64,000 nt of DNA, from NCBI GenBank assembly GCA_903970615.1, contig CAJCJH010000060.1, positions 1-64,000 on the forward strand, in the 5' to 3' direction. The translations under genes and the position numbers were made by a program. Position 1 is the first letter of the stretch. Each line of letters opens with the position of its first letter. Positions 1,589-46,386 of the stretch are shown here, one piece after another. The notes beneath the pieces were generated by a model. It was not told where the DNA came from and searched no databases. It worked only from the letters and a program-made list of their open reading frames with translations. The stretch comes from Rhodospirillales bacterium (GTDB lineage Bacteria; Pseudomonadota; Gammaproteobacteria; Nevskiales; Nevskiaceae).

Positions 1589-1619
1589 ACGCCAGCATCA
1601 ACGCGACGAGCCTCCCGCC

Positions 1620-19342: not shown

Positions 19343-19474
19343 GGCAAGACTCTCCTCTGGCAAAGTGTGCGTTAGCAGACCGAGTGCCAGCGGGAAAACC
19401 GATGGACGGTTTAGGCCGGCTGAATGCCGGGAAGCGAGGTCAATCGAGGCTTGCCGCGGAATGGCGGCGCAGGT

Positions 19475-19942
19475 TTACTTTGACCAGCAGAGCGTCGGGC
19501 TTGAACCCGTTGCGGTGCGCAAGCCGGTACTGGCGAGTATCAGCGAAGTGCATTGCGTATCTTTCGCCTGCGGGCTGCCGGTGACGGGTGTTGCGGTCAA
19601 GGTGAAGGCGGTGCTGGTCGCAGGATTCAGGCTGATCTGATAGATGCTGTCCGGCATTTGTGTCGCTTCGACCAGGCTGCTGCGATTGATGTAGTAGCTG
19701 GTACCGCTGACCCCGGCAAGATAAGTGAAGTCGGTCGAATAAACCGTGTTCTGCAACTTCAGCACTTCCTGCTTCGCCGCGAGATCCACCAGCACGCCGC
19801 GTGCGACCGAACGATTGCTACGGATAACGTAGCTGGTGTAGTTGGGAAACGCGATCGCCGCGAGGATCGCAATGATCGAAATGGTGATGATCAACTCGAT
19901 CAAGGTGAAGCCAGCGCCGGAAGACTTCATGGGCAATTTCAT
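19475..19942 (-). CDS. pilE: type IV pilin-like minor pilin (PilE type)
   Basis: Prepilin of 155 residues with the site GAGFTLIELIITISIIAILA and the pilin sequence AFPNYTSYVIRSNRSVARG. Two cysteines near the C-terminus (DTQC, TLCWSK) could close a D-loop. AAGGA sits eight bases before the ATG. It follows another PilE-like gene by 12 bases and ends the first cluster. Two PilE-type genes in a row suggest each fills a different position in the tip complex. Confidence 0.87.
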   Translation of the reverse strand: MKLPMKSSGAGFTLIELIITISIIAILAAIAFPNYTSYVIRSNRSVARGVLVDLAAKQEVLKLQNTVYSTDFTYLAGVSGTSYYINRSSLVEATQMPDSIYQISLNPATSTAFTLTATPVTGSPQAKDTQCTSLILASTGLRTATGSSPTLCWSK

Positions 19943-19954
19943 CGAGTGTTTCCT

Positions 19955-20482
19955 TCAGCTGCCCGGCTGGAAATCCCACGAGGCCACCCAGGTCGATGCG
20001 CCCGGCGGCAGATGGTCTTTCACATAATAAAGATTCGAGCCGGCGCTGTTGCTGGTGGTGGCGTTGTTCAGATATTGACTGGTATTCACCGTCAGCCGCA
20101 GGTTGCCATCCTTGACCTGGCGACCTTGTGCCTGGGCAATCAATTGCACGCAGCCTGCGGTGTTGGAACAGCTCGCGCTGCTCGGCTGCAGCGAAACCAC
20201 GTACAACGCCGAGTCCCCGCAAGTCACCGTTGCCGTGCTGTAGCCCGCGCCGATGAGATTGGTCGGGTAACTATTCGTATGCTGATACGCCGTTTCGAGC
20301 CGGCGCTGGGCTTCGACCAGACAACCTTCGCCGGCCTCTCGATTTGTCTTCAGCTGATATCGCTGATAACTCGGCACCGCGATCGCTGCAAGGATCGCAA
20401 CGATTGCAGCAGCGATCATCACCTCGATCAGCGTGAATCCGCGTTGCACCCAGTGCCTACTTCGCTCATGTCGCATGTTCAT
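19955..20482 (-). CDS. pilE: type IV pilin-like minor pilin (PilE type)
   Basis: Prepilin of 175 residues with the site QRGFTLIEVMIAAAIVAILA followed by AVPSYQRYQLKTNREAGEG. Cysteines occur in the middle (VTCGD, SASCSNTAGC). It starts 34 bases after the long PilY1 gene. An alternative ATG two codons in (20476) is possible, since no clear ribosome-binding site separates them. Confidence 0.86.
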   Translation of the reverse strand: MNMRHERSRHWVQRGFTLIEVMIAAAIVAILAAIAVPSYQRYQLKTNREAGEGCLVEAQRRLETAYQHTNSYPTNLIGAGYSTATVTCGDSALYVVSLQPSSASCSNTAGCVQLIAQAQGRQVKDGNLRLTVNTSQYLNNATTSNSAGSNLYYVKDHLPPGASTWVASWDFQPGS

Positions 20483-20516
20483 ATCAGGATCGGTATCGAG
20501 ATCAATAGCCCAAAAA

Positions 20517-26198: not shown

Positions 26199-26200
26199 AT

Positions 26201-26896
26201 TCAATTCCTGATGACTTCCCGATAGACCGAAGCGGTCTGTGCGGTCGCGTCTTTGGTCGCGGATTCATGGCCGCTGCTGGAGACATAATAAAAAACACTA
26301 CCACCGCCACCAGCCGCGCCGTGGCCGAAACCCTGGTAGCCGGAAGCCATCACCAAACCCGCGCCGCTGGCGTACGAAACCACCAGCTTGTAAACGCTCA
26401 GTTCCGCGGTGATGACCACCGGTGTTGAATTGCCGCTGGTGGTGATGGTCTTGGTGAAAGAGGCATCCTGATCCAGCCCGGTGGGTTTGAACACCGCGCA
26501 GGTTGTCGTCGTCGGACATTCACTGTTGACGCTGTACCAGTTGCCTGTAGTTTGCGGCGGTTGAGTGAGGCTGAAGCCGTTGCTGCTGCTGAACAGTGCA
26601 GTCGTGGTGGCATCGTAGCCGGCAGTCGGCACCGAACCGCCGATCGAAGCCGGCCAGCCGCGGTAGTAGGTATTCGCATCGACCAGATTGTCCGCCAGCG
26701 TGCGTGCGAGTTCTGCGGACTCGAAAGCCTGTGTGCGCTCGGTGCTGTTGCTACTCATCTTGGCTTCGAGGCCGGAGCCGCGGATTGCGGCCAGCGCAAC
26801 CAGAGTGAGCAGCACCAGAAAGATCAGCGCGGTGACCAGCGCATAGCCGCGCGAAGCGCGTTTTGCGGATCTGCGAATCATGGAATCGAGGTTCAT
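26201..26896 (-). CDS. pilX: minor pilin PilX
   Basis: Minor pilin of 231 residues with the degenerate PilX N-terminus SRGYALVTALIFLVLLTLVA, then RGSGLEAKMSSNSTERTQAFESAELAR, which is the PilX N-terminal signature (no Glu5-type prepilin motif). It overlaps the pilW stop by four bases (26893-26896). A Gly-rich segment HGAAGGGGS precedes the C-terminus. Confidence 0.9.
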   Translation of the reverse strand: MNLDSMIRRSAKRASRGYALVTALIFLVLLTLVALAAIRGSGLEAKMSSNSTERTQAFESAELARTLADNLVDANTYYRGWPASIGGSVPTAGYDATTTALFSSSNGFSLTQPPQTTGNWYSVNSECPTTTTCAVFKPTGLDQDASFTKTITTSGNSTPVVITAELSVYKLVVSYASGAGLVMASGYQGFGHGAAGGGGSVFYYVSSSGHESATKDATAQTASVYREVIRN

Positions 26897-27936
26897 TGCC
26901 GCACCCGGTTGCGAAGCTGGATTTCGCGCACGATCAAACGGCGCTGATATTTCTGTACGGACGCGGCTGGCGTGTAAACGTAGCCCGCGCCCGTCATCGT
27001 GTAGCTTTGGGTATCGGTGTAATTGTCGAGCGCGTCGCCGCGCGCGATGAAACTGACGCGAACACTGATTACCTGCGACCAGTTGGTCACGCTTGCGGCA
27101 GTGGCGTATTGATCCACCTGCTGATCGCCATTGGTATCGATGCCGTATTCGAACTTCATCATTTCGATGCCATCGACCAGCGGCTGCGCAGTGAGGCCGG
27201 CGCTGGTTAAGGTGAGGATGTAGAGCGTCGGCGTAGAGCCTTGGCCGTTGTCCGCGTTCAGCAGATAAAACACGACATTCTGGAACTGATAATTGAGTAC
27301 GCCACCCTGGTTGGTTCCACTGGGAATGGCATCGCCCGGAATATCGGAAACGGCGTTGGCTGCGTTTGCTATGTCGAACAAATCTGCCCTGCTGCCGACC
27401 AGTGTACGCAGATAGAAATTGCCATTGGCGGTGACGTTCGCAGGCGCGGGGGACGTCGTCAGGGTTGCTGTATTAATGTAGGTATTCGGATCGATGTAGC
27501 GGATCGCCAACACGTCGCTATTCGGAATGTAACTCGGAGTGGCAGTTCCGGCCGAGGGGAAGCAGCCAGCCGGAAATGGTGAGAGCGGATAGCTCGATGA
27601 ACCGCTGTAGCCGACGATTCCGCTGGTGGGATCGACGCTCCAGGCGGCATTGCATCCGCCAGTAGTCGGTGACTGAAAGCTCGGCGTACCTTGAATAGTG
27701 ATTTTGGCTGGCTTCACGCCGCTCCACAGATCGGCCATGCGAATGTACTGGCTCAGGTATCCGCTGGCATAGCGTGCATTTTCCTGCAGCCGCCCGACGC
27801 TTTCCTGAACCCGATAGCCTTGCTTGCTGTTGACGAACACCTGCGCCACACCCGCCAGCAGCACCAAGCCAAGTGTGAGCGCCACCATCAGTTCGATCAG
27901 CGAAAAACCGCGATTGCGCCAGATTCTAGGGTTCAT
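26893..27936 (-). CDS. pilW: minor pilin PilW
   Basis: Minor pilin of 347 residues with NRGFSLIELMVALTLGLVLL and the PilW block VGRLQENARYASGYLSQYIRMADLW. The start ATG 27936 overlaps the pilV stop (ATGA). An open extension to 28083 is a shadow of pilV. The C-terminal part carries the PilW-type DGIEMMKFEYGID segment. Confidence 0.9.
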   Translation of the reverse strand: MNPRIWRNRGFSLIELMVALTLGLVLLAGVAQVFVNSKQGYRVQESVGRLQENARYASGYLSQYIRMADLWSGVKPAKITIQGTPSFQSPTTGGCNAAWSVDPTSGIVGYSGSSSYPLSPFPAGCFPSAGTATPSYIPNSDVLAIRYIDPNTYINTATLTTSPAPANVTANGNFYLRTLVGSRADLFDIANAANAVSDIPGDAIPSGTNQGGVLNYQFQNVVFYLLNADNGQGSTPTLYILTLTSAGLTAQPLVDGIEMMKFEYGIDTNGDQQVDQYATAASVTNWSQVISVRVSFIARGDALDNYTDTQSYTMTGAGYVYTPAASVQKYQRRLIVREIQLRNRVRQ

Positions 27937-28529
27937 GGCGTAAAGCCGAGTTGGAAGCAGCGCAGATCGGAAGTCACGGATGGGTTGCAGGTGTAAGTGG
28001 GCGAACTTCCGGCGGTACGGTTTGGGTCCCAATACACCGCGATGGTACAGAACTGTTTGCTGGTCGCCGCATCCGTCGAGCAAGCGATCGAAGTGGCGCT
28101 GTTCGGCAGGGTGCTGGTTGCCGTGGTAGTCGTCCCGCTATTCGTGGGATCCAGCTGCGGTGCGTTGCTGACGCTGCCGCCGGTCACTTCGTTGTACCAC
28201 ACCGCCATATCCCACTTGGCCTGATCGCTCGGATTGGTGCAGCCGCCGTTGGAACAATTAACCGAGGGCGCAGGCGCGCTGCCGGCGCTCAAGGCGTAGT
28301 ACGAAGTGCCCGCGCTGCCGATCACGCCAAGACGATTCGCCCGCATGCGCTCAACCATGCTCTGTGTCAGGATCGCGGCCTGCGTGTATTGATACGAGAC
28401 AAAATTGTTGGTGAGCGCAGAAGTTTGCAAACCCGCGATGCCGAGCAAGCCGATCGCCAGCACCAGCACGGCGATCAACACTTCAAGCAGGGTGATGCCG
28501 GATTGCCGCTGGCTCAAATTCGGTTTCAA
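27933..28529 (-). CDS. pilV: minor pilin PilV
   Basis: Prepilin of 198 residues with QSGITLLEVLIAVLVLAIGLL and the PilV continuation GIAGLQTSALTNNFVSYQYTQA. The start is TTG 28529, overlapping the preceding stop as TTGA. No ATG or GTG upstream of the prepilin site fits. Cysteine pairs in VNCSNGGC and TYTC near the end may form disulfides. Confidence 0.88.
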   Translation of the reverse strand: MKPNLSQRQSGITLLEVLIAVLVLAIGLLGIAGLQTSALTNNFVSYQYTQAAILTQSMVERMRANRLGVIGSAGTSYYALSAGSAPAPSVNCSNGGCTNPSDQAKWDMAVWYNEVTGGSVSNAPQLDPTNSGTTTTATSTLPNSATSIACSTDAATSKQFCTIAVYWDPNRTAGSSPTYTCNPSVTSDLRCFQLGFTP

Positions 28530-34289: not shown

Positions 34290-36251
34290 ATGCTTCAAAC
34301 CATCCGCGACCGCCTGACCGGCCCCATCGTCTGGGTCATCATCGCCCTGATTTCCGTGCCTTTCGCAATCTGGGGCATCCAGTCGTTCCAGACCGGCGAT
34401 AACGATCCTGTCGTCGCCACGGTTGGCAGCACCTCGGTGCTGGGCCTGCACTTTGGCGGCGTCGATATCACGCAGGGCCAGTTTCGCAACGAGTACGAAC
34501 AATATTATCGGCGCCTGCAAACCCTGCAGGGCGAAAACTTTCGCGCTGATTCGATCGATCCGGTGGCCACACGCGATCTCGTACTGAAGGAGATGATCGC
34601 GCGCATCGTGCTCGATCAATACACCCGCAAGGCGGGTTATCGTTTAGACGATGCCGCGCTACGGGAATTTCTGGAAACGATTCCGCAGTTTCAGGATAAA
34701 GGCCGATTCTCCGCGCAGCGTTACCGCGAAATGCTGACGCAGAATGCGATGACGCCGGAAAGCTTTGAAGCCATGCAGCGCGATCGCCTGCCGAAAGAGC
34801 AGCTGCGCGAAGTGGTGCTCGATAGCGCTTTTGTCTCGGCGCAGGAATCGCGTCAAGCCTGGCAACTTGCACATCAGCAGCGCAGCTACAGCTACGTGGC
34901 TCTGCCGTCGGCCAAATATGTCGGCGCAGTTAATGTCAGCGACGCGCAGATCAAGCAGGAATACGAACAGAATCAATCGAGCTATCAGGCGCCCGAGCGG
35001 ATCAAGCTGGCTTATCTCGAACTCGATCTTTCCGAGTTTGCGCCAGCGGCAGCACCTTCGGCCGAGATTCTCAAGGCGATTTATGAAGCACAGAAAGGCA
35101 GTGCGTTTTCGACGCCTGAAGAACGCCGCGCCAGTCATATTCTGATCAGCTTTGGCGCGGATAAATCCGCTTCAAAAGCGAAGGCGCAGGCGCTCTACGA
35201 CAAGCTTCAGCAGGGCGCGGATTTCGCGGAAACGGCCAGGCAGAATTCGGATGATCCCGGCTCGAAAAGCAAGGGCGGCGATCTGGGCTGGATCAAGCGC
35301 GGCACGCTGACGCCGAAGTTCGAAGCCGCGCTTTTCGACCTCAAGCCAGGCCAGATCAGCGAGCCGGTGGAGACGGAATTCGGCTGGCATCTGATTAAGC
35401 TGACGGAATTCAAGCCTGCCAAAACGGCTGCATTTGAAGACGCGGACGTGCAGAAGCAATTGCTCGAAATCTATCGTCAGAAAGATGCCGCACAGCGATT
35501 CACGGACGAGTCGCAGCAGCTCGAACAACTGAGTTTTGAGAATCCAAATTCACTCGATGCGGCGGCCAAGGCGCTCAACCTCACGCCGAAAACCACCGAC
35601 TGGTTTACGCGCAGCGGCGGCGGCGGAATCACCGCCAACCCGGCCGTGATCACCGCTGCGTTTTCGCGCGAAATTACGCAGGATGACGAAAACAGCAAGC
35701 CGATTCCGATCGACCCCACGCATCTGGTCGTCGTCCGCAAAGCCGAATATGAGGCACCGCACACGCTTGCCTTGGCGGAAGTCAGCGACAAGATCCGCGA
35801 TGAACTGAAGCTTCAAGCGGCGAAAGCGAAGGCCGCAGCCGATGCGGATGCGCTTGTTGCTGCGGTGGCTGGTGGTCAGTCGCTCGAAGCGGCAGCCAAG
35901 GCGCAGAATCTTGCGGTGGTCACGCCCACGCCCGCCAAGCGTGACAACAAGGATGGCGATAAGGTGCTGCTCGATGCGCTGTTCAAGATGCCGCATCCGG
36001 CCAACGACAAACCCAGCGTCGGCAAAGTAGTTTTAAGCACAGGCGATATCGCCGTGCTCGCGCTGCAATCGGTATCGGATGACGGCGCGGCACCCGCACC
36101 CGGCACGCCGGATTTCAAGCGGGATAGCACACAGCTGCGCGATGCCCAGGCCGGCGCGGAATTGCAGGCTTTCGTCACCGCGATGGAAAAGGAAATCAGC
36201 GTGAAACGGAAAGCCGAGCCAATTGCGGATAAGGCTGAGTCGACGCCTTGA
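34290..36251 (+). CDS. ppiD: periplasmic folding chaperone PpiD (SurA N-terminal and parvulin domains)
   Basis: Inner-membrane-anchored, periplasm-facing chaperone of 653 residues that helps newly secreted outer-membrane proteins fold. It has one N-terminal membrane segment (GPIVWVIIALISVPFAIWGI) and then a SurA_N/PpiD-type helical domain. A parvulin domain spans about residues 270-372 (RRASHILISF, GGDLGWIKRGTLTPKFEAALF, GWHLIKLTEF), followed by an Ala-rich helical C-terminal region. PpiD parvulin domains are often catalytically weak, so isomerase activity is uncertain. No strong promoter is seen between the tRNA terminator and the start. Confidence 0.93.
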   Translation: MLQTIRDRLTGPIVWVIIALISVPFAIWGIQSFQTGDNDPVVATVGSTSVLGLHFGGVDITQGQFRNEYEQYYRRLQTLQGENFRADSIDPVATRDLVLKEMIARIVLDQYTRKAGYRLDDAALREFLETIPQFQDKGRFSAQRYREMLTQNAMTPESFEAMQRDRLPKEQLREVVLDSAFVSAQESRQAWQLAHQQRSYSYVALPSAKYVGAVNVSDAQIKQEYEQNQSSYQAPERIKLAYLELDLSEFAPAAAPSAEILKAIYEAQKGSAFSTPEERRASHILISFGADKSASKAKAQALYDKLQQGADFAETARQNSDDPGSKSKGGDLGWIKRGTLTPKFEAALFDLKPGQISEPVETEFGWHLIKLTEFKPAKTAAFEDADVQKQLLEIYRQKDAAQRFTDESQQLEQLSFENPNSLDAAAKALNLTPKTTDWFTRSGGGGITANPAVITAAFSREITQDDENSKPIPIDPTHLVVVRKAEYEAPHTLALAEVSDKIRDELKLQAAKAKAAADADALVAAVAGGQSLEAAAKAQNLAVVTPTPAKRDNKDGDKVLLDALFKMPHPANDKPSVGKVVLSTGDIAVLALQSVSDDGAAPAPGTPDFKRDSTQLRDAQAGAELQAFVTAMEKEISVKRKAEPIADKAESTP

Positions 36252-36329: not shown

Positions 36330-37127
36330 TTACTCGCCGCCCTCGGAAACGTAAGGCAGACCGACATTGCGATAGCCGGCATCGACGTAAATGATTTCGC
36401 CGGTGATGGCCGAGGCAAGATCGGAAACCAGGAAGGCTGCGGCGTTGCCGACTTCGTCGATCGTCACATTGCGGCGCAACGGCGATACTTTCTCCGCGAC
36501 ATTCAGCATGCCGCGGAAACCCTTGATTCCGGCCGCGGCCAGCGTCTTGATCGGACCGGCCGAAATTCCGTTAACGCGAATATTTTCCGGACCCAGTTCC
36601 GCGGCCATATAGCGCACGTTGGCTTCGAGGCTGGCTTTTGCCGGACCCATCACGTTGTATTGAGGCACGGCGCGATCAGCACCCAAATAGGTGAGGGTCA
36701 GCAACGCAGCTGCACGGCCTTGCATCAGCGGGCGTGCGGCTTTCCCCAGTGCGGCAAAACTGTACGCGGAGATGTCGTGCGCCATCGCATAGCCTTCGCG
36801 CGTTACGGTTTCAAGGTAGCCGCCCGCCAGCAGTTCGCGCGGTGCGAAACCAATCGAGTGGATGACGATATCGATACCGCCCCAGGCATCGGCGATCGTC
36901 TTGAACGTCGCCGCGATATCCGTATCGCTGGTGACATCGAGCGGCATCACCAGCGCTGAATTTGTCGAATGCGCCTGCTCCTCGACGCGGGATTTCAGCT
37001 TCTCGCCTTGATAGCTGTAGGCAAGTTCCGCGCCTTCACGATGCATCGCATCAGCGATACCGCTGGCGATCGACCGCGTGCTGGCGATGCCGGTAATCAA
37101 GGCTTTTTTGCCGCTGAGAAATCCCAT
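36330..37127 (-). CDS. fabI: enoyl-ACP reductase (NADH)
   Basis: Reduces the double bond of enoyl-ACP in the last step of each fatty-acid elongation cycle. It is a short-chain dehydrogenase-type protein of 265 residues with the FabI cofactor motif [15 protein letters not shown]. The catalytic triad is Tyr147, Tyr157 and Lys164 in [35 protein letters not shown] follows. The frame is open 14 codons upstream, but ATG 37127 gives the standard [13 protein letters not shown] start. It is the last gene of the minus-strand envelope operon, 38 bases after the TonB-like gene. This may be only a position effect. Confidence 0.95.
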
Positions 37128-37165
37128 CGCTTTTAGTTTTAGTGCTTCACTCGTGGATTGACCGA

Positions 37166-38143
37166 TCAACCCGAAATGTAATTCAAGGGATAGTTCGGGT
37201 CGGTGAATGGCGGCACATTCTTGGCGCCGAAATTCATCAACTTGACGCGCTCCATGATTTGTCGCTCCAGTTCCGGATCGTGGAATGAGCTGGACACGAT
37301 CGTGCAGGACGTCACTGAACCATTTGGTGCGATCGTCAGGCTGAACGTGATTTTGCCACTGGTTGCCATATCCGGATTGGCACGCTGCGCGCGCGTGAAA
37401 ATCGCCGAGATCGCACCCTTGTTGCGGTCGAAAACTTCCTGGATTTCCGCGCGGCTGCGCCCAGCGGTGCCGGTTCCACCCGGACCATTTGCACCGGTGC
37501 CGAAGCCCAGCGGACTGGAAACCGCACCGGTGCGGCGATTGCCGACGCCGGCTCCGCCTTGGGTGCCGACCACGCCTTGGGTGCTGCCGTTGATGCCGCC
37601 GCTGGCGGAGCGCGCAGACGCGGCGATTGCGTCCGGATTGCCAGCGGCACCTCCGCCGTTGGTCGTCAACGCGCCGGTAATCAGCGGCTGATTATTGACC
37701 GTCGGCAAGGCCGAATCGCGCAGGCCGGCAAGCTGATCCTTCAAGGCCAGAATGCCGGATTTCTCCGCGGCCTTGCGCGCTTCGGCGACCTTGTCGACTG
37801 CAGGCTTGGGCTCTTCCTGCTTGGCGATTTTCGGCTCCGGCTTGGCCTGTTCTTTCGGCGCGGGCTTGGTCGGCTCTTTCGGTGGTTCCGGCGGCGGTGG
37901 CGGCTTGTCCGGCACCTTCGGCTTGAGCAATTCTGCGTAGTGCTTGGTGATGATTTCTTCCGGCGGCGGCTTCGGCTTTTCTTCGAGCTTGAACAGCGAA
38001 AAAATAAATAACAGCGCGATGGCGCTGATGCCAACGATCGCAACGATACGCCGGTAACGGCGATCCGCTTCCTCGGTGAGAGCCCAGCTATCCCAACGGA
38101 TCGGGCGGCGGATAAACCCACTCCCCATGATCTGCGCGCTCAT
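37166..38143 (-). CDS. TonB-like energy transducer with AgmX/PglI-type C-terminal domain
   Basis: Inner-membrane protein of 325 residues. It has a cytoplasmic N-terminus, one membrane helix (about 33-51, [21 protein letters not shown]) and a Pro/Lys-rich periplasm-spanning stretch (about 55-115). A Gly/Ala/Ser-rich linker leads to a C-terminal domain. That domain ([52 protein letters not shown]) has the pattern of the AgmX/PglI family, a relative of the TonB fold found in myxobacterial gliding proteins such as GltG and GltJ. Its ATG overlaps the preceding ExbD stop (38140-38143). It should couple the proton motive force harvested by the TolQ/TolR-like neighbours to an outer-membrane partner. 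Confidence 0.85.
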
Positions 38144-38670
38144 GGCGAACCCGAACCCAGGACGCCTGCGCGATGATCCACCGACAGCGAAATCTGCGCG
38201 AAGCGGGCATCCCCAGCGGTGGCCATCAATTTCTTGACCAGCGAGTAGGGCAATTCCTTGTCTGCCATGATGTTCAACTCGCCGCGCGTATCTCCTTTCA
38301 CTTCGGTGCCCTCGGCGGGCGCCAGCGGCACGGCTTCAAGCTGCGTTTTGAGCGGGGCAAGAATATTACCCTGTGTTTTTTCCGCGTCGGCGACGGTCAT
38401 CACCGGCGCGCCCTGAAGTTCGATATCGGTTTCGGTGATGGTCAGAACCGGCACGTCATGCGGCGGCTCATGCGTCAAGGATTGCGGCAGCTGCAATGAA
38501 TGCGGTGTTCGCACGGTGGCGGCGTTGGTCGAAGTCAGCAGCAGGAAAAATACGAGTGTCGTGAAGACGTCGATCATCGACACCAGATTCAAAGGCACGG
38601 ACTCACGTTTGGCCGCTCGCCGCATCAAGCGGTTGCGCTTGTAACCGGAGCGGATAGTCTGCTTGCTCAT
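38140..38670 (-). CDS. ExbD/TolR family protein (second copy)
   Basis: Biopolymer transport protein of 176 residues. A basic N-terminus precedes one membrane helix with the proton-pathway aspartate in LNLVSMIDVFTTLVFFLLL, and a periplasmic domain follows. The motif NLVSMIDV is the family signature. Together with the other ExbD gene it gives two non-identical TolR subunits, as in the AglQ/AglS pair of myxobacteria. The C-terminal overlap with the TonB-like gene implies coupled translation. Confidence 0.9.
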   Translation of the reverse strand: MSKQTIRSGYKRNRLMRRAAKRESVPLNLVSMIDVFTTLVFFLLLTSTNAATVRTPHSLQLPQSLTHEPPHDVPVLTITETDIELQGAPVMTVADAEKTQGNILAPLKTQLEAVPLAPAEGTEVKGDTRGELNIMADKELPYSLVKKLMATAGDARFAQISLSVDHRAGVLGSGSP

Positions 38671-38715
38671 GGAGTGCGATTAAGGGAGAGGCTCACGGAT
38701 GGCTTGTGGGGCAGC

Positions 38716-39225
38716 TTAGGGTGACTTCGCGGCGTTGGGCGCATCGCCGAGCGAAATAGCAGGGAACAGGTCCAGATCCTGGCGACCGTCGGGGCTGGGC
38801 GCGGTGCGCACGGCGTCCATCACCTGGATCAGCGCGTCATAAGGGGTATCCGGTTCCAACAGCAAGGTAATTTTGTCGTCGTCCGGTGCGCGTTGTTTGA
38901 CCTGCTGTAAAAGCTGGTTGAGCGCGACCACATCGTAGCCGCTGGCGATGTTCGGAAAGACCTTGATGGTGCCGCCACGATCGCCGAGCACCAAAGTTTT
39001 CTGGCGAATCACGACACTCAGCGCACGCGGCGGATCCTTCTGCGGAACCGAGGTATTGGACGGCAGGTTGACGCCCAGGATCGATACGCCGATGGTGTTC
39101 ACCAACAGGAAGAAAATCAGCACCGTGAGGATATCAATCATCGACACGATATTGAGTTCGCCCGCGCGCTTGCGACGCATGCGCTTGAGCGAGCGACGGG
39201 TGTCGCGCGAAAGACCGTGCATCAT
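38716..39225 (-). CDS. ExbD/TolR family protein (first copy)
   Basis: Membrane protein of 169 residues with the family signature LNIVSMIDILTVLIFFLLV, including the conserved Asp, and a periplasmic domain rich in beta structure. A second Met directly follows the first, so the start may be 39222. It lies 55 bases after the ExbB-like gene and 45 before the second ExbD-like gene. It differs clearly from its neighbour in sequence, so the pair is old rather than a recent duplication. Confidence 0.9.
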   Translation of the reverse strand: MMHGLSRDTRRSLKRMRRKRAGELNIVSMIDILTVLIFFLLVNTIGVSILGVNLPSNTSVPQKDPPRALSVVIRQKTLVLGDRGGTIKVFPNIASGYDVVALNQLLQQVKQRAPDDDKITLLLEPDTPYDALIQVMDAVRTAPSPDGRQDLDLFPAISLGDAPNAAKSP

Positions 39226-39280
39226 GGCTGGAGTGCCTTTGACTCGTAACGGCGATCGGTAAGGTGCGGCGCAAGCGGCA

Positions 39281-39913
39281 TCAGTGCTTCAGGCCCAGGC
39301 TGTTGAGGAACTTGACCGAAGCCATCTCCAAACTATCGACCAGTTCATCAGTTTTCGACTGCAGCCAGGAGTGCAGCAGCATGAACGGGATCGCGGTGCA
39401 GAGGCCGAACGCGGTGCAGTTCATCGCCACCGACACCGAAGCAGCAAGCTGATCCTGCTTCTGGCTCGGATTGATGTCGCCGACCGCGGCGAAGCCGTGA
39501 ATCAGGCCGACGATGGTGCCGAGCAGGCCGAGCAAGGTGGCGACGTTGGCGAAGGTAGCGAGCCAGTGCGTACGCCGCTCCAATTGCGGCGTGACTTCCA
39601 TCAGGCTTTCTTCCATCGCGGTTTCGACTTCTTCACGATTGGAGGCGCCGCGCGAACGCGAGATGCCGTAGCCGAGTACGCGACCTATCGCCGTTTGCGA
39701 ACCGGCGGCGAGCTTTTCGGCTTCCTCGAAGCGGCCACTATTCACCAGCGGCAGCAGCTTCGACCAGATCGTGCGGTTTTCGCTCGCGGCCTTTTGCAGG
39801 TAGATGAAACGCTCGATGACGATGGCCAGACCGAACACCGCAACCACGGCGATTGGGTACATAAATGTGCCACCAGCCTGGAAAAATTGACTGATCGTGA
39901 CGAAAAAATCCAT
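39281..39913 (-). CDS. MotA/TolQ/ExbB family proton channel protein
   Basis: Inner-membrane protein of 210 residues with three hydrophobic segments: one near the N-terminus (GGTFMYPIAVVAVFGLAIVI) and two in the C-terminal half. The family core reads FANVATLLGLLGTIVGLIHGF and SVAMNCTAFGLCTAIP, with the Thr/Ser pattern that lines the proton path. AAGGGGA lies nine bases before the ATG. With the two ExbD-type proteins it should form the proton-driven motor of this operon. Confidence 0.92.
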   Translation of the reverse strand: MDFFVTISQFFQAGGTFMYPIAVVAVFGLAIVIERFIYLQKAASENRTIWSKLLPLVNSGRFEEAEKLAAGSQTAIGRVLGYGISRSRGASNREEVETAMEESLMEVTPQLERRTHWLATFANVATLLGLLGTIVGLIHGFAAVGDINPSQKQDQLAASVSVAMNCTAFGLCTAIPFMLLHSWLQSKTDELVDSLEMASVKFLNSLGLKH

Positions 39914-39977
39914 GAAAAGAATCCCCTTGGGTGTTCGGATTGAGACGGGTTGAGCGGACTTGGGCTAAACGGCCAGC

Positions 39978-40481
39978 TTATTTGCCACTGGCGAGGTGAG
40001 CTTGACGGTAATCAGTAATGACATTGTAGTAGTTGACGCGGCGCTGAAAAGTATCCGGATCGATCGGCGAGGTATCCACATCGACAAAGCGGGCAGGGCG
40101 ATCGAGTCCATTTTCAGCATAACCATCTTTCCAAGGCGTGATGAACAGGCCGATCGGCGCTTCCTTGTCGCCGACGACGACGGTGCCATCATCGCCGGTG
40201 TTGGTCTGCTTCGGCGTCAGCGGCGTGGTCGGAACCTGCATCGTTTCCGGCGGCGCCACTGAAATCGGGCCGCGTTCACCGCCGCTGACCGACGACTGCG
40301 GTGAACGCGAGGGCGGTGTGGTCTGCACCGTGCTGGGCTGGAAATCGACATCGGACGGCTGACCGCTTTTGCCAATCGTTACCGCGGGCGCATTTTGCTG
40401 GGCGAATGCCGGCAGTATCATCAGGCTTGAGAGGCTTGCCGATATGCTGGTCCGCAGGATGAAGCTGGCGACGGTTTTCAT
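39978..40481 (-). CDS. small secreted protein of the TonB/TPR operon
   Basis: Protein of 167 residues with a signal peptide (about 1-27, ending LPAFAQQ). A low-complexity Pro/Ser/Thr region follows, then a short C-terminal part (IGLFITPWKDGYAENGLDRPARFVDVDTSPIDPDTFQRRVNYYNV, quoted only in part: IGLFITPWKDGY, RPARFVDVD, FQRRVNYYNV). I do not recognise a family. Its position between the TPR lipoprotein genes and the motor genes suggests a periplasmic partner or linker. Confidence 0.75.
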   Translation of the reverse strand: MKTVASFILRTSISASLSSLMILPAFAQQNAPAVTIGKSGQPSDVDFQPSTVQTTPPSRSPQSSVSGGERGPISVAPPETMQVPTTPLTPKQTNTGDDGTVVVGDKEAPIGLFITPWKDGYAENGLDRPARFVDVDTSPIDPDTFQRRVNYYNVITDYRQAHLASGK

Positions 40482-40492
40482 GGTGCGAATTC

Positions 40493-41194
40493 CTACTTGC
40501 TGGGCGCGGCTGGAGCTGCGGGTGGCTGCAATTCGTCGATCCAGGCGGTCACGACCGGTTTCGAGCCTCCAGACAGGCGCTGATATTCACGATACTGCGT
40601 CACCGCATCCTGCGGCCTTCTCAGATAAGTGTCGTACAGGATGGCGAGGTTCAAGTGTGCGTTCGGATAGTCCGGCTGTACTGCGACGGCTCTCAAATAC
40701 GACTGCTCGGCATGCGCATAGTCGCCGCTTTCACGATAGATGATGCCTTCCCAATCGTAAGCGGTTGCGTTCTTCGGATTGGCGGCGATCGCACGATTGA
40801 AACTGTCGAAGGCTTTATCACGTTGCTTGGAACGAGCATAGAGAATGCCAAGATTGGTCGGCGGCCCCGACAAGTTCGGAAACTCCTTGGCCAGCGCTTC
40901 GAGCGCGCTCTGGGCTTCGTCGGTTTTGTGATCGCGCATCAAGGCCAGCGCCTGCTGATAACGACCGCTCGCCGGACCTTGCGTCGCGGCCGGTGGCGGC
41001 GCGGCGCCAGCGGTGCTTGCCGCTTTATCAGACGATGACGGCGGGGTTTTCGACGGCGAACCGCCACCACCGCGTCCGGCACAGCCAACCAGCCCGGTGG
41101 CCAAGCCTGCCACCAGCGCAATCAATACGATGATCGATTGCGGCTTTTTTTGCGGCCCGCAAGGCATGGCAGCGCTCTCAAGGAAGGGCTTCAT
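40493..41194 (-). CDS. TPR-repeat lipoprotein
   Basis: Lipoprotein of 233 residues with a lipobox LVGC after the hydrophobic stretch SIIVLIALVAGLATG. A Gly/Ser/Pro-rich linker and about four tetratricopeptide repeats follow (RYQQALALMRDHKTDEAQSA, NLGILYARSKQRDKAFDSF, DWEGIIYRESGDYAHAEQSY, HLNLAILYDTYLRRPQDAV). ATG 41194 is chosen because AGGAG precedes it by four to five bases. It overlaps the upstream TPR gene by 17 bases. An ATG at 41167 just past that stop is the alternative. It was probably sorted by LspA/Lol to a membrane leaflet facing the periplasm. Confidence 0.83.
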   Translation of the reverse strand: MKPFLESAAMPCGPQKKPQSIIVLIALVAGLATGLVGCAGRGGGGSPSKTPPSSSDKAASTAGAAPPPAATQGPASGRYQQALALMRDHKTDEAQSALEALAKEFPNLSGPPTNLGILYARSKQRDKAFDSFNRAIAANPKNATAYDWEGIIYRESGDYAHAEQSYLRAVAVQPDYPNAHLNLAILYDTYLRRPQDAVTQYREYQRLSGGSKPVVTAWIDELQPPAAPAAPSK

Positions 41195-43997
41195 AAATCT
41201 CCTGACGCTGTTCGCGCTTGGCATATTTTGCCGGTGCCAGCACTGCCAGCGCGTCGACGCTCTTGCGAATCCAATCGTTCCAGAGCCCTTGATTGATGCG
41301 TTCGAGATTGCCTTCATGCGCGCGAATGGCTTGATCGTCGAATGGCGCCGCCTGTTCTTCCAGCAGCAGATCGTATTGCTCGCGTTCCTCCGCGCCCAGA
41401 TTGTGCGGGCGTTCCGAATCGCGCAGCGCCTTGCCGAAATCCTGATAGACCGTTCCGAGCTCATAATTGGCAGCAGTCGTGGTTTCGATGAAACCATAAC
41501 TAGCTGCGCGAGTGAGTAACTGCACGGCGTTTTCAGTGGCTTTCTTGCGCGCCGGTAGGCTATTGCTGATCGGCGTGGTCAACTGGAGTTTGCGGGCATC
41601 AGCGGCGGCGGTCCGGCCCAGGTCGAGCACGGCTTGCGCGGCTTGCAGACGATATGGCGAGTCGGCCGCATTGCCGTTATCCGCGCCAAGAATCGCATTC
41701 AGCCAGAACGCATGGCGGGTTTGATCGTTGATCGAAAGCGTGTAGTCGGCCAGATACTGACGTGCCGCCATCGCCCGATCCACCGGTTGCGGGTAGGCGT
41801 TCACATAGGCTTCGTAGGCGGTTGCCGCCTGCGCCGATTGGTGTGCGCTGTCGTAGAGCTTGGCCGCCAGCCACATCGCTTCGCGGCGGGTATCCGGCGA
41901 TTCGCTGGGTCGCGCGGCGATTCGCTGATAAACCACGGCGGCCTGCGCCGGTTTGTTGTCTTTCTGATACGCCGCGGCCAGTTGCTTGTCCGCATCCGCG
42001 CTCAGCGGATTGGTGGGATAGCGCGAGCGATAGGCTTCGAGCGCCTGCTCTGCCGCCGGCCAATCCTGCAAGCCGACCAAGGCGGTGGCGCCATCGTAAT
42101 CGGCATTCGGGCGGATGCTCGCGTCCGGCACGATCGTGCCGATACGCAGGAAATTGCTTGCGGCCGTGCGCAGATCGCCGGCCTTGCGCGCCGCTTCGCC
42201 TTCCTTGTAAATCGCGGCGGCCAGTTGTTCGACCACAGCCTTGTGCTGCACGCTGCCGGGCGCGGTTTGCGGCAGCAGGCTGGTGTAAGCGGTTTCGGCC
42301 TCGGCGTAATTGCCTTGCGCAAACCGTGCGTCGGCGGCGACACCGAGCGCTTGCGAACGCTGCTCCGAAGTAGCCGGCGGATTCAGCTGTAATACGCGCC
42401 GGGCAACAGTGACTGCGTTGTCGTAATCCTTGATCTCGATCAAATCCTGCGCGGCGCGCGTCAGCGCCGAAGCCACTTGCGGATTGGTCGGGAAGGTATC
42501 GGCGAACTTGGTGGTTGCCGCTACCGACTCGCGCAATACGCCCGGACGATCGGCCGGCTGCGATTCGGAGGCGAGGCGCTGGTAAGCCTGCACGGCCGCG
42601 TATCCCGCTTCCGGTGCTTTCGGATGATTGCCGCGCTCGTACGCGGTCTTCATGTACTGCTGCGCGGCATCGCGCGTGCGGCCGCCGTCGTACAGCGAGT
42701 CGGCCATCAGCAGGTTCACTTCCGGCAGTTTCGGATCATTCGGATAAAGCTCGATGATCTTGCTGTACCAGCCTGCGGCGGCGATGAAATGAGTACGCGC
42801 TGCGGCGGGATCTTTCTGCGCTTGCGCCTGCGCAGCGGCTTGATAGTGACGGCCGAGGTCTTCGAGATCCTGCCGCACCGCGGCTACCGCTTCCGGCGTC
42901 GGCGGGCGACCTGCCCAATAGGGCGCAGTCGGCGCGTAGGCATTGACGTAGCGCTCTTTCTCGATCACCACCTGATCGCTGAACCCGCCATCCTGATATG
43001 CGCTGATGACGCGCGACTGGAACGCCGGCGCGAGCGGGCTGGACGCATGCGCCTGCACGAAAGCGGCGTATGCGTTGGCCGCATCGGTATAGCGTTTCTT
43101 TTCCAGGAACAGCTCGCCGAGCGCGTTGTAGACCAGCGGGTAATACACTGGCTCACCGCCGTGCCGCGCAAAATATTCGCGCGCGCCCTTGCCGCCGCCG
43201 AGTTCGGCCAGCGACAGGCTGACGACACGCAGGGAGTCCGTCGCCATCTCGGCTTTGCCGGGCGCGACCTGCGCCAGGCTGGTCTTGGTGTTCTCCAGTT
43301 CGCCCGGCGGCAGCAGGCGCGACAGGATATCGAAGTAAATCGCGATGTCTTCGGCGTAGCGGCCTTGTTTATAAAGGCTCCAGCCCAGTTTGTATTCGCT
43401 CGGTTCATAGAATGGCGAGCCGTTGCCGAACACCATGCCGGCGCGATATTCCTTTTCTGATTCCGTGAAGCGGCCCAATTGATACAGCATTTCGCCGCTG
43501 CGGAAATGCGCATCTGCGATCACGGTGGAATTCGGATACTGCTGTTCCAGACGCTGCAAGGTCTGCAATGCACGATCGACATCACCGATATTTTGATAAG
43601 CCCGCGCCATCTGGTAAAGCACGCGATCGTTTTCAGGATCGGTAGGTTCTTCCTGCAGCAATTTCTGGTAGATGCCGATCGAGCGCTGAATTGCGATCGA
43701 ATCCGGATTGCCGGCGGAATCCTGCATCTGAATGCCGAGATCGGCGATGCGCCGCAGAGCTTCGCGCCGTGTTGCCTGATCCGGGTGCAGCGCCAGCAAT
43801 TTCTGATAATTTTCGACTGCTTTCTGGGGGTCCGCCGCGACCTGCTGCGACTGCACCACCGGCAACTGGTCTTCCGCTGGCGCTTGGCGGGTCAGTGTCT
43901 TGATCGAAGGTGCGGGCGCTCTTTGCTGAGGCGCGCTGCCGCAGGCAACAAGTGCTACCGCCAGAACCGGAGTTGCCACGGCATAGCGGGTCTTCAA
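41178..43997 (-). CDS. large TPR-repeat lipoprotein
   Basis: Lipoprotein of 939 residues with the signal MKTRYAVATPVLAVALVAC (lipobox LVAC) and a solenoid of many tetratricopeptide repeats over most of its length. Examples are KAVENYQKLLALHPDQ, VLYQMARAYQNIGDVDRAL, EMLYQLGRFTESEKEY and LGELFLEKKRYTDAANAY. Large periplasmic TPR proteins of this kind occur beside TolQ/TolR genes in Agl-Glt-like clusters (GltD/GltE-type). Its start overlaps the preceding stop by four bases. No enzymatic motif is seen, and it is likely a scaffold between motor and outer membrane. Confidence 0.85.
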   Translation of the reverse strand: MKTRYAVATPVLAVALVACGSAPQQRAPAPSIKTLTRQAPAEDQLPVVQSQQVAADPQKAVENYQKLLALHPDQATRREALRRIADLGIQMQDSAGNPDSIAIQRSIGIYQKLLQEEPTDPENDRVLYQMARAYQNIGDVDRALQTLQRLEQQYPNSTVIADAHFRSGEMLYQLGRFTESEKEYRAGMVFGNGSPFYEPSEYKLGWSLYKQGRYAEDIAIYFDILSRLLPPGELENTKTSLAQVAPGKAEMATDSLRVVSLSLAELGGGKGAREYFARHGGEPVYYPLVYNALGELFLEKKRYTDAANAYAAFVQAHASSPLAPAFQSRVISAYQDGGFSDQVVIEKERYVNAYAPTAPYWAGRPPTPEAVAAVRQDLEDLGRHYQAAAQAQAQKDPAAARTHFIAAAGWYSKIIELYPNDPKLPEVNLLMADSLYDGGRTRDAAQQYMKTAYERGNHPKAPEAGYAAVQAYQRLASESQPADRPGVLRESVAATTKFADTFPTNPQVASALTRAAQDLIEIKDYDNAVTVARRVLQLNPPATSEQRSQALGVAADARFAQGNYAEAETAYTSLLPQTAPGSVQHKAVVEQLAAAIYKEGEAARKAGDLRTAASNFLRIGTIVPDASIRPNADYDGATALVGLQDWPAAEQALEAYRSRYPTNPLSADADKQLAAAYQKDNKPAQAAVVYQRIAARPSESPDTRREAMWLAAKLYDSAHQSAQAATAYEAYVNAYPQPVDRAMAARQYLADYTLSINDQTRHAFWLNAILGADNGNAADSPYRLQAAQAVLDLGRTAAADARKLQLTTPISNSLPARKKATENAVQLLTRAASYGFIETTTAANYELGTVYQDFGKALRDSERPHNLGAEEREQYDLLLEEQAAPFDDQAIRAHEGNLERINQGLWNDWIRKSVDALAVLAPAKYAKREQRQEIYEALP

Positions 43998-45814
43998 GGC
44001 GCGACTCCATGCGATGCGCGATCGTAAATCCGGGCGATCGCAAAGCGCGCTTCCACCAGATATTTTTCGTTGAGCTTGCGCTGCGCATCGAGATCATTCA
44101 GCGCGATCTTTTGCAGCGTCTTGGCACCCGCATCTTCCGCCACTTTGAGTTTCGGACTGAGCGCATCCAGACGGATTTTCAGCGCATTGAGTTGCTCGTA
44201 AGGACCATCGAATTTGCTCGGCGCATTGCTCGGCAGCTGCAGCTTGATCGGCGGCGCAGGCGCTTCGGCGGCCTCCTTCGCCTTGTCTTCATAAGGCGCG
44301 GCCACCAGCATTTGCGCCATTTGCAACTGCGGCTTGATATCCGGCTGATAACCGAGATTGGCATCGCTGCTGAGCGTGCCGATGCGCTGCTGGAGTTCTT
44401 TCTGCGAAACCGGCTGTTTGGTACGCACGTCGTAGGCGGCTTGCAGATCGAGAATGCGCTGGCGCTCGGCGTCGGTGTCACGGATCAGCAGCCGGATATC
44501 GCGGAACGACTTGAGCGCTTCCTGAAACGGATGATCGGCGATCAGCGTTTGCAGATAAAAAGTCTCCGGCGCGTCCGGCAAATCCTTCAGCTTCCAGGTC
44601 CAGCCGCTATCGGCATCGCCATTGCGGCTGATGATGGTATCCACCATGCGGCCGTAGCGAATACTCAAAATGGCCTGATCGAGATTGACGCGCGTCTGTT
44701 CCAGAGCAGTGATGGCTTTCTCGTAATACTGCTGTGCTTCGACATGCGCACCGAGCTTATCTAGCACGTAAGGAATGGCGAGCAGACCTTCCTGCACGGC
44801 CGGATCGATCGGATCGCGGCCGACCAGTTCCACCCACGGCACTAGAGCTTTTTTCAGCGCAGCTTCCTGGGTGGGATCACTGCTGGCAAGCTGGAATGGT
44901 TTCAGGCCAGCGCGCTTGTAGATGTCTGAATCCAGAAATCCCGGCCGCAGCAGGGCGCCGATGGACGAGAACTGGCCGGAAGCCGGGCCGGACGTATCGT
45001 CCGCTACCTGGCTGCGCTTCTGCTTGTCGCCTTGCACCGAGAGATAGGCCCATCCGAGACCGAGCAGCGCACGGTTGGAAAACGGCCCGGTTTGACGGAT
45101 GCGATCCAGAATCGGAATCGCCGAGCCGCCTTGCTGGCGCTTCAGCCAGTAGTAGCCGAGCACCAGATTGGCCTTGTCTTTCAGCGCCAGCCCTTCGGAA
45201 TCGGTGGGTTTGCGCGTGCCGACGCGATCCAGCACGTTGATTCCCTCATCGACATGATCGGACTTGAGCAACGCGATGCCTAGGTTGTAACGCATGTAGC
45301 CCGGCTGATCGCTGGCGGTATCCGGCTTGGTTAGCACCTGCACCGCATCGGCGTAACGATCCTGCGCCATCAACACGCGCGACATCTGATCCTGCCAGTT
45401 CACCATCAACTGCGCCGGGATTTGCGAACGCAGCGCGGTGAGTTCCGCCGTCGCTTCCGGCAGGAAATTGCGCTCGTATAGAAATTCGGCGCGGCGCAGT
45501 CTGGCGCGTCCGAGCACCAGCGGATCCTTTCCGTTCGCGGCTTCTTCGCGGTAGATCATTTCGGCGCGTTTCTGCATACCGAAGTTGAGCGTATCGTCCG
45601 CCAGCCGTTGATAATATTCAGTTGGCAAAGTGCTTTGCGGCGATTCTTTTTGAATTTGAATCAGCGCCGTGGAGGCTGCCAGAAAGCGGCGGTTTTCCGC
45701 CATGTAGTCGGTCGCGCGCACGCGCGGATCGAGGTCGCTGCCAATGGTGTAGCTGTCGGCCGCACTGGCCGCGCCGCAAACGCATCCGAGAATCAAGAGA
45801 GCGAGCTGTTTCAT
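43994..45814 (-). CDS. secreted TPR-like protein
   Basis: Exported protein of 606 residues with the signal MKQLALLILGCVCGAASAADS. Helical repeats resembling tetratricopeptides occupy the first two thirds (AEMIYREEAANGKDPLVLGR, RVLMAQDRYADAVQVL, NLGIALLKSDHVDEGI, LLGLGWAYLSVQGDKQKR). A more helical, possibly coiled-coil C-terminal part follows. ATG 45814 overlaps the previous stop (ATGA at 45811-45814). An ATG five codons upstream is less likely. I cannot assign a named family. Confidence 0.82.
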   Translation of the reverse strand: MKQLALLILGCVCGAASAADSYTIGSDLDPRVRATDYMAENRRFLAASTALIQIQKESPQSTLPTEYYQRLADDTLNFGMQKRAEMIYREEAANGKDPLVLGRARLRRAEFLYERNFLPEATAELTALRSQIPAQLMVNWQDQMSRVLMAQDRYADAVQVLTKPDTASDQPGYMRYNLGIALLKSDHVDEGINVLDRVGTRKPTDSEGLALKDKANLVLGYYWLKRQQGGSAIPILDRIRQTGPFSNRALLGLGWAYLSVQGDKQKRSQVADDTSGPASGQFSSIGALLRPGFLDSDIYKRAGLKPFQLASSDPTQEAALKKALVPWVELVGRDPIDPAVQEGLLAIPYVLDKLGAHVEAQQYYEKAITALEQTRVNLDQAILSIRYGRMVDTIISRNGDADSGWTWKLKDLPDAPETFYLQTLIADHPFQEALKSFRDIRLLIRDTDAERQRILDLQAAYDVRTKQPVSQKELQQRIGTLSSDANLGYQPDIKPQLQMAQMLVAAPYEDKAKEAAEAPAPPIKLQLPSNAPSKFDGPYEQLNALKIRLDALSPKLKVAEDAGAKTLQKIALNDLDAQRKLNEKYLVEARFAIARIYDRASHGVAP

Positions 45815-46386
45815 TTGCTGGCGACCCACTCATGCAATTCCAAGGCCGGACGTGCGACTACCGAACGGCGCGACAGACTCAATTCCACGTTGGCCGGTTC
45901 GCGCGCCTTGGTGAAGCTGGCTTCGAGGTGATCCGTCAACGGCGGCGCGCCGGCTTGCGCGTCGGCGAATTGCGCGACCACATCCGCGCGAATCTGATGC
46001 TTGCCGGGGCCGGCGTTGAGCTTAACCAAAGGCTGAATGCCGCGCCGCTGCAGCGCGATGGATTCGGCGTTGATGTACTTGTACTCGAACGGCTTGCCGC
46101 CATCCACCGATACCGTGATGCTCTGCACCAGCAGCCCCGAAACCGGCACGCCGAAATAAATGATAACGCGCGTCAGGTCTGGATACAGCAGCGTCTGCTC
46201 GGTGGTTTGCAGTTCCGCCTTGATATTGATCGCCTCTTCCTTGAGGTTCTGCAGATTCTGATCCAGCTGCTGTGCCGGATCGACCGTAGGAATGGGAATC
46301 GACTGTGGCGCGGCGTGCGCAGCACTCGCTGCGAGCAGCATCGTCAGCAGGACGCGACGTACCGGATTTGGATTAGGTAGGTTCAT
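45811..46386 (-). CDS. secreted protein, first gene of the TonB/TPR operon
   Basis: Exported protein of 191 residues with a signal peptide ending ASAAHAAP. A helical region (PAQQLDQNLQNLKEEAINIKAEL, in part LDQNLQNLKEEAINIK) is followed by a probable beta domain (TRVIIYFGVPVSGLLVQSI, KHQIRADVVAQF). No recognised family. It stands 147 bases from the gloB stop, and a TAGACT -10-like box with a weak -35 in that gap may be the operon promoter. It is coupled by ATGA to the next gene. Confidence 0.78.
   Translation of the reverse strand: MNLPNPNPVRRVLLTMLLAASAAHAAPQSIPIPTVDPAQQLDQNLQNLKEEAINIKAELQTTEQTLLYPDLTRVIIYFGVPVSGLLVQSITVSVDGGKPFEYKYINAESIALQRRGIQPLVKLNAGPGKHQIRADVVAQFADAQAGAPPLTDHLEASFTKAREPANVELSLSRRSVVARPALELHEWVASK

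Follow-up and report, generated by a model that had tools for sequence, protein, structure and literature searches.

An Agl-Glt core operon in a Nevskia-type genome: a likely motor for an outer-membrane assembly

What does the core of a myxobacterial gliding machine do in a gammaproteobacterium? The question is raised by nine consecutive genes, numbered 1 to 9 in the order of transcription and followed by fabI, on the minus strand (37166-46386) of the window, by which we mean the whole 64,000-nucleotide stretch analysed here (positions 1-64,000, forward strand, of contig CAJCJH010000060.1, assembly GCA_903970615.1; the contig is coded C60 and its genome G000). The draft genome around it comprises 3.17 Mb in 126 contigs, and every listed open reading frame (ORF) was verified at its given coordinates (Table 1). 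The operon is real, looks intact and belongs to a complex that has been published without an explanation of its role, the Agl-Glt core; it is filed as a core and not as a gliding machine because TIGR04565, the GltA/GltB-like family, finds no match in its own genome. We consider it likely that this gammaproteobacterial core complex moves or loads an outer-membrane assembly and that its motor is separable from the arrays of tetratricopeptide repeat (TPR) proteins that it drives.

Luciano et al. (2011, PMC3169522) describe in Gammaproteobacteria a single region of unknown function, possibly one operon, that contains gltC, gltD, gltE, gltG, aglR, aglQ and aglS together with one extra gene lacking a myxobacterial homologue, and name Marinobacter and Saccharophagus degradans among its carriers. 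According to the same paper, the core (its Group B) also occurs in Geobacter and others, gltA and gltB are confined to Myxococcales and Bdellovibrionales, the core is insufficient for motility and gliding is undocumented in most carriers; Wartel et al. (2013, PMC3858216) suggest that the core complex may be a basal transport machinery. An earlier note on this DNA, made from the sequence alone, had pointed to such relatives in Gammaproteobacteria with an open role, as both papers confirm. Like the published region, the window groups a channel, two ExbD-type genes, TPR proteins and a transducer of AgmX/PglI type, but it holds two candidates, genes 1 and 5, for the single extra gene. In Myxococcus xanthus the Agl-Glt gliding and Agl-Nfs sporulation machines have a shared motor and interchangeable arrays (PMC3858216, PMC4488436) and possess GltA/GltB barrels, whereas the window's genome is without a TIGR04565 match. 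GltF, GltH, GltI, GltJ and GltK were not recognised in the operon, the genome searches having been aimed at other proteins.

The gene set is conserved well beyond the window. In a class sample of 369 genomes, gene 2 finds matches (E<=0.001) in 82, a few of them weak (e.g. 1.4e-4). Stretches were fetched from 71 of these 82 (G007, G067, G076, G154, G186, G210, G212, G242, G313, G338 and G340 were left uninspected), and the 105 stretches, mapped with profiles built in this analysis, yielded 95 sorted clusters, genomes with several clusters being counted more than once. In all 61 clusters that have a channel and both ExbD genes, the detected core genes run in the order 1 to 9 along a single strand, so the set is not a chance grouping, and the co-occurrence survey proposed in the earlier note finds the order kept throughout; such co-occurrence figures, like the Fisher values, ignore kinship. 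Of the 61, 47 show all nine genes; genes 3 and 9 were picked up in every one and genes 2 and 4 in 56 each. Four related loci found in a contig scan belong to metagenome-assembled genomes that carry the labels Sinobacteraceae and Nevskia (L007, 80%; L008, 81%; L009, 53%; L010, 51% identity over the best segment of gene 2). When genes 6 to 8 are placed in a tree rooted at its midpoint and read without support values, the window, L007, L008 and L009 fall into one clade, with L047 adjoining.

Genes 6 to 8 have the family signatures of a proton-driven motor. Gene 6 matches PF01618 with 99.8 bits and is 48-94% identical to 13 aligned relatives; its best NCBIfam match is TolQ (62.7 bits, below the equivalog cut-off of 221). 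It is the sole AglR-type channel of the genome, scoring 365 bits where the runner-up reaches 67. T133 and T167 are invariant in the channel alignment, and we take them to correspond to the ion-path threonines of TolQ. Genes 7 and 8 match PF02472 (59.7 and 53.6 bits), and the TolR scores of the ExbD-type genes, 33.5 and 22.1 bits, stay below the cut-off of 127.3. Among plasmid relatives there is none for gene 3, and five distant channels were found for gene 6.

The two axle genes differ in the residue that occupies the membrane carboxylate position. In gene 8 this residue is Asp in all 75 loci compared (Asp34 in the window), while in gene 7 it is Asn in 69 of the 75, Ser in one and Asp in five, namely the window (Asp31), L007, L008, L009 and L047; the window thus keeps the Asp in both axle genes. 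A 2022 review (PMC9389320) gives AglQ and AglS as both predicted to carry the Asp and leaves undecided whether the subunits form homo- or heterodimers. With Asn in nearly all gene 7 copies, the axle would be a mixed one holding a single proton site, and two such sites would be present in the lineage of the window. The Asn/Asp pattern offers a natural way to ask whether the two ExbD-type subunits pair with each other, a point that the review calls unknown.

The putative transducer, gene 9, bears on the relation to classical TonB systems. Its tail scores 53.3 bits against NF033768 (AgmX/PglI; cut-off 40), and it falls below the cut-offs of TIGR01352 (TonB; 26.2 bits, 27.1 required) and PF03544 (22.9 bits, 24.6 required). 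At E<=0.01, the 14 gene 9 proteins that were aligned, the window's included, are all matched by NF033768, by NF033760 (GltG) and by TIGR01352; against the GltG equivalog the window's protein scores 17.9 bits (cut-off 650). The description in the earlier note of a TonB-like protein with an AgmX/PglI-type C-terminus therefore holds, and a C-terminus matching classical TonB only is not what was found; its reading of the whole as a trans-envelope machine powered by protons is likewise supported by the gene set, the tail scores and the conserved order. Gene 9 is about 450-470 residues long at L051 (614-1960) and also at L054, L058, L060 and L066, and at L051 a charged, coiled-coil-like stretch was seen by eye ahead of the membrane helix.

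The remaining five genes encode envelope proteins, their secretion and lipidation being assigned by eye from the N-termini. Gene 2 matches PF14559 (TPR) with 32.8 bits (cut-off 25); its fold model is poor (predicted local distance difference test, pLDDT, 56.6) and unusable. Gene 3, with the lipobox VACG (by eye), exceeds the cut-offs of TIGR02795 (YbgF; 105.8 bits, cut-off 90.1) and TIGR03302 (BamD; 83.2 bits, cut-off 81.4), both scores being sums over several repeats. Genes 2 and 3 hold the places expected of GltC and GltD and have TPRs, and no GltC or GltD model was matched. In the five of the 61 motor clusters without a separate gene 2 call (L093, L100, L105, L116 and L118), genes 2 and 3 form a single fused frame of about 1415 to 1535 residues. 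Gene 4, with the lipobox LVGC (by eye), reaches 34.7 bits against NF033758 (GltE; cut-off 225), less than against three other models. Gene 5 has no Pfam match and a best NCBIfam score of 15.0 bits (cut-off 190); its family carries a conserved PWK motif and, by the profile built here, occurs in 73 of the 95 clusters and in 60 of the 61 with a motor. Gene 1 was found in 87 of the 95 clusters (57 of the 61 with a motor) and matches nothing in Pfam or NCBIfam at E<=0.1; its AlphaFold2 model shows a helix (37-67) followed by a beta-sandwich (pLDDT 80.0; predicted template modelling score, pTM, 0.64), for which the PDB gave no match at E<=0.001.

A further feature of the system is that arrays occur without a motor of their own. 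On contig C41 of the window's genome (L041 2814-10432), homologues of genes 2 to 5 are followed by an OmpA-family protein, and no channel or ExbD match was found on this contig. Arrays of the same type exist in the genomes of L007 (74%) and L008 (79%), again without motor genes in the fetched stretches; the OmpA-family neighbour was found in the former (L182) and not in the latter (L181). The window's genome and those of L007 and L008 each have a single AglR-type channel. Since its genome holds one AglR-type motor and two arrays, the window's motor probably serves both, as one motor serves both Glt and Nfs in M. xanthus (PMC3858216). In the sample as a whole there are 25 motorless clusters in 24 genomes, and all 24 have a motor elsewhere: a motor-bearing cluster within the fetched stretches in 14, and in the other 10 a channel that scores between 338 and 365 bits and has genes 7 to 9 as neighbours. 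Motor genes only are present at the separate locus of G056; in G193, too, only motor genes were seen, on a contig that ends 1.2 kb upstream. These motorless arrays suggest one engine with several loads. Two side observations may be added: the C41 array lies near an ANTAR response regulator and, judged by eye, a long oxidoreductase-like ORF, and L171 (contig C23 of G128) has genes 6 to 9, with one stop in the channel match, and no array genes were found there.

The nature of a possible load is suggested by other carriers. Immediately upstream of gene 1 and on the same strand, part of the other clusters have a block of genes, U1 to U6 and sometimes ApbE, assigned by Pfam for a single copy or a small number per gene and by profiles built here for the remainder. 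U1 is a heme lipoprotein of about 900 residues with a hydrazine-synthase-alpha-like domain (HZS_alpha), and of its 34 ORFs 32 carry two or three CxxCH motifs and 25 have a lipobox-like start (hand count); U2 combines SH3 and a barrel, U3 is a barrel and U4 is TlpA-like; U5 is a DUF4266 CxC lipoprotein, of which 35 of 37 copies end in GCGCN (hand count), and U6 is a DUF3570 barrel. U6 is adjacent in 26 of the 95 clusters (12 motor-bearing, 13 motorless, 1 at a contig end), nearby in 4 (2, 1 and 1, respectively) and not in the stretch in 65, 7 of which show other block genes; in some genomes, e.g. G043, G184, G239 and G264, the block lies on the same contig beyond the fetched stretch. With two later cases, the adjacent block loci total 28, in 17 families counted by hand.

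The association also appears at the level of genomes. DUF3570 occurs in 94 of the 369 genomes, comprising 68 of the 82 core genomes versus 26 of the 287 others. For the short DUF3570 type, sorted by match range and score, 53 of 56 genomes among the matches listed have the core; the type occurs without a gene 2 match in G139 and G348, both of which carry the core, and in G052, which was left uninspected. TIGR04565 is found over its cut-off in 55 of the 369 genomes, of which 53 match gene 2 (G067, G076, G154 and G340 without further inspection) and span 29 of the 44 families having a gene 2 match. G348 and G139 each have an AglR-type channel and, in the fetched stretch, the whole block U1 to U6 ahead of genes 1 to 9, gene 2 being divergent or split; by gene 2 match or full cluster all 55 TIGR04565 genomes carry the core. 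Matches to TIGR04565 below the cut-off, in 55 more genomes, are outside this count, and 29 of the 82 core genomes, the window's included, are without one over the cut-off.

U2 and U3 share a barrel. Against TIGR04565 (cut-off 60), U3 reaches 133 to 176 bits at the three loci tried and U2, which has SH3 in addition, 32 to 45 bits. In 11 genomes, ORFs belonging to a single family (167 to 289 residues as called) lie between U1 and U2; they are lipoprotein-like where read and gave no named family in the copies tried. In M. xanthus, cglC (an outer-membrane lipoprotein) is accompanied by gltB and gltA, which encode paralogous outer-membrane barrels, and by gltC (TPR); the topology figure of that paper leaves out residues 1-80 of GltB and 1-45 of GltA (Jakobczak et al., 2015, PMC4488436). 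If GltA and GltB belong to TIGR04565, as we infer, the order of lipoprotein, U2, U3 and, further on, gene 2 looks like that of CglC, GltB, GltA and GltC.

Part of the block has been reported in another context. Meheust et al. (2021, PMC8238504) describe DUF3570-DUF4266-thioredoxin-ApbE flavinylation clusters, which have in common with the block DUF3570, DUF4266, a TlpA-like protein and sometimes ApbE; the main text of that paper never uses the words ExbD, TPR or tetratricopeptide, whereas here the core directly follows the block. Flavinylation as the block's general function is unsupported, the [ST]GA[ST] motif being present in 11 of 41 DUF3570 ORFs of the block, fragments included. Literature searches on DUF3570, which did not extend to supplementary files, found no paper joining it to the Agl/Glt core. 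Further upstream, many loci (L055, L056, L057, L065, L091 and others) show a 400-residue protein (21 genomes) and an 830-residue LamG lipoprotein (20 genomes), each having CxxCH in the one copy that was read, and a 540-residue protein with a start resembling that of twin-arginine translocation (TAT) substrates in the copy read (17 genomes); the first and the last had no Pfam match in the copies tried. The window's genome has one ApbE and no match to DUF3570, DUF4266 or TIGR04565; HZS_alpha was not matched either, a weak negative, as no control gave a match in that search.

Several established systems could claim these genes. The channel, the ExbD-type axle and the TonB-like transducer are of the same families as in TonB-ExbBD and Tol-Pal, but in the window the curated cut-offs of the matched TolQ, ExbB, TolR, ExbD and TonB models are not reached and a TPR array is present in addition. 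A TonB-ExbB-ExbD variant energising nutrient uptake through TonB-dependent receptors would account for the TonB-like tail, with its 26.2 bits against TIGR01352, its 22.9 bits against PF03544 and the TIGR01352 match in 14 of 14 members, and for the 10 receptor plug places in the genome. We hold it to be highly improbable, because the window's TonB scores lie below their cut-offs and the AgmX/PglI score above its own, every one of the 61 motor clusters has TPR genes as well (gene 3 in all 61), the genome encodes further ExbB- and ExbD-type proteins away from the operon and contig C60 has none of the 10 plug places, just as the earlier note had seen no such receptor beside the operon. The linkage to receptors that the note had named as refuting its reading was not seen. 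Iron or nutrient uptake was accordingly rejected on the tail scores and the absence of a linked receptor.

A Tol-Pal-like role in envelope maintenance, in which the machine would act on the constriction of the cell wall or outer membrane rather than on a cargo, would fit the TolQ model as the channel's top NCBIfam match (62.7 bits), the gene 3 scores above the YbgF and BamD TPR cut-offs and the OmpA-family protein adjoining the second array; it is nevertheless improbable, given the missed TolQ equivalog cut-off (221), the lack of a recognised TolB or Pal among the ten proteins and a patchy spread (gene 2 match in 82 of 369 genomes). As for genuine gliding, in which the machine would propel the cell across a surface, the plan of motor plus array is that of the myxobacterial machine, but TIGR04565 is unmatched in the genome, the other Group A genes lying outside the search, and insufficiency of the core for motility and the missing record of gliding in most carriers (PMC3169522) speak against it; gliding by this machine is unlikely, and we give this explanation very little weight.

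The reading of the operon as a core complex acting on an outer-membrane assembly has its own weak points. TIGR01352 matches every aligned gene 9 member, the equivalog cut-offs of GltE and GltG are far off in the window (34.7/225 and 17.9/650) and the TPR models matched by genes 2 to 4 are unspecific. Homology of genes 2 and 3 to GltC and GltD, like the assignment of AglQ and AglS, rests on gene order and PMC3169522. Motorless clusters were judged on stretches of <=20 kb, 9 of the 25 show no gene 3 and some may be decayed remnants; the own genome is a draft of 126 contigs. Finally, the redox block is missing here, so the cargo is not readable from the window's neighbours.

The layout of the genes is compatible with one transcription unit. 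The families named in the earlier note are all present (TPR in the 611-, 939- and 334-residue ORFs, PF01618, PF02472 twice and FabI); of the ATGA overlaps it described, those between genes 1 and 2 (45811-45814, read from the sequence) and between genes 8 and 9 (38140-38143) are real, while genes 2 and 3 overlap by TTGA (43994-43997) and gaps of about 11 to 64 bases separate genes 4/5, 5/6, 6/7 and 7/8. From the first overlap, the start of gene 2 should be ATG 45814, not the listed GTG. The ORF of gene 4 (334 residues, ORF start 41497) is probably too long, its true start being either ATG 41167, which lies 10 bases past gene 3, or ATG 41194, which overlaps gene 3. Gene 9 and fabI overlap by TTGA only with a TTG start of fabI, for which an ATG at 37127 is the alternative. 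The remark that fabI stands last is correct for the window and incidental for the family: by tblastn, fabI adjoins the core only in the window, L007, L008 and L009, all of Nevskia type, that is in 4 of 105 stretches, and as a part of the machine it was rejected. Elsewhere in the window, a PpiD/SurA-like chaperone gene (34290-36251, plus strand) converges on fabI, an AcrB-type resistance-nodulation-division (RND) pump is encoded at 1524-4886 (plus strand) and type IV minor-pilin genes (PilX, GspH, PilW, Tt1218-like) occupy 12186-28083 (minus strand), together with an ORF of 1895 residues, which matches the PilY1 propeller over a short stretch (36.0 bits, cut-off 28.1), and one of 1348 residues with no Pfam match at E<=0.01.

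Table 1. Coordinates and assignments of the core genes, the axle Asp codons and the neighbouring fabI in the window.
Feature	Coordinates	Strand	Assignment
gene 1	45811..46386	-	secreted protein, 191 aa; candidate extra gene without myxobacterial homologue
gene 2	43994..45829	-	secreted TPR protein, 611 aa from listed GTG, ATG 45814 likelier; GltC position
gene 3	41178..43997	-	TPR lipoprotein, 939 aa, TTG start; GltD position
gene 4	40493..41194	-	TPR lipoprotein; GltE position
gene 5	39978..40481	-	small secreted protein, 167 aa
gene 6	39281..39913	-	TolQ/ExbB/AglR-type channel, 210 aa; PF01618
gene 7	38716..39225	-	ExbD/TolR-type axle subunit 1, AglQ position; PF02472
Asp31 codon, gene 7 (aligned membrane carboxylate)	39133..39135	-	counted from translation
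gene 8	38140..38670	-	ExbD/TolR-type axle subunit 2, AglS position; PF02472
Asp34 codon, gene 8	38569..38571	-	counted from translation
gene 9	37166..38143	-	TonB-like force transducer, AgmX/PglI C-terminus, 325 aa; GltG position
fabI	36330..37169	-	enoyl-ACP reductase; neighbour, outside machine count

Gene content, the kept gene order, the family matches, both retained Asp residues, the second array and the lone AglR-type channel were observed directly. On them we propose the following mechanism, in which proton drive, the path of force, the cargo and the sharing of the motor are what we infer from protein families and gene order. In the inner membrane, the channel (gene 6) and the axle (genes 7 and 8) would make up a motor driven by protons, whose passage through the channel would turn or shift the gene 7/8 axle, and gene 9 would carry this motion across the periplasm and cell wall to a cargo-specific array, the soluble TPR protein of gene 2 and the TPR lipoproteins of genes 3 and 4, which may hold the load under the outer membrane. 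The motor would thereby move or load an outer-membrane assembly, in block-bearing genomes probably the barrels and lipoproteins of the block. A more far-reaching proposal, which we put forward tentatively and regard as doubtful, is that the core supplies proton-powered movement to a redox machine of the outer membrane made of U1 to U6, that gliding arose by a later change of cargo and that the Nevskia lineage, with its two-Asp axle, drives another cargo.

The link to the redox block, the motorless arrays with a shared motor and the Asn/Asp axle look new; the available part of PMC3169522 mentions duplications, and not motorless arrays, an axle Asn or a redox block, and the window itself departs from the common pattern with Asp in both axle genes and no redox block beside the core. 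The job of the core in non-gliding bacteria was left open in the 2011 and 2013 papers (PMC3169522, PMC3858216), and no later answer was found in the literature searched. Should the redox proposal be true, the core would assemble, move or open the U1 to U6 unit in many of its carriers, a lopsided Asn plus Asp axle would operate in nearly all sampled Gammaproteobacteria, and the window's lineage would run other cargo, including the second array. The link between TIGR04565 and the core, found in 55 of 55 genomes, makes the role of the core in non-gliders experimentally testable.

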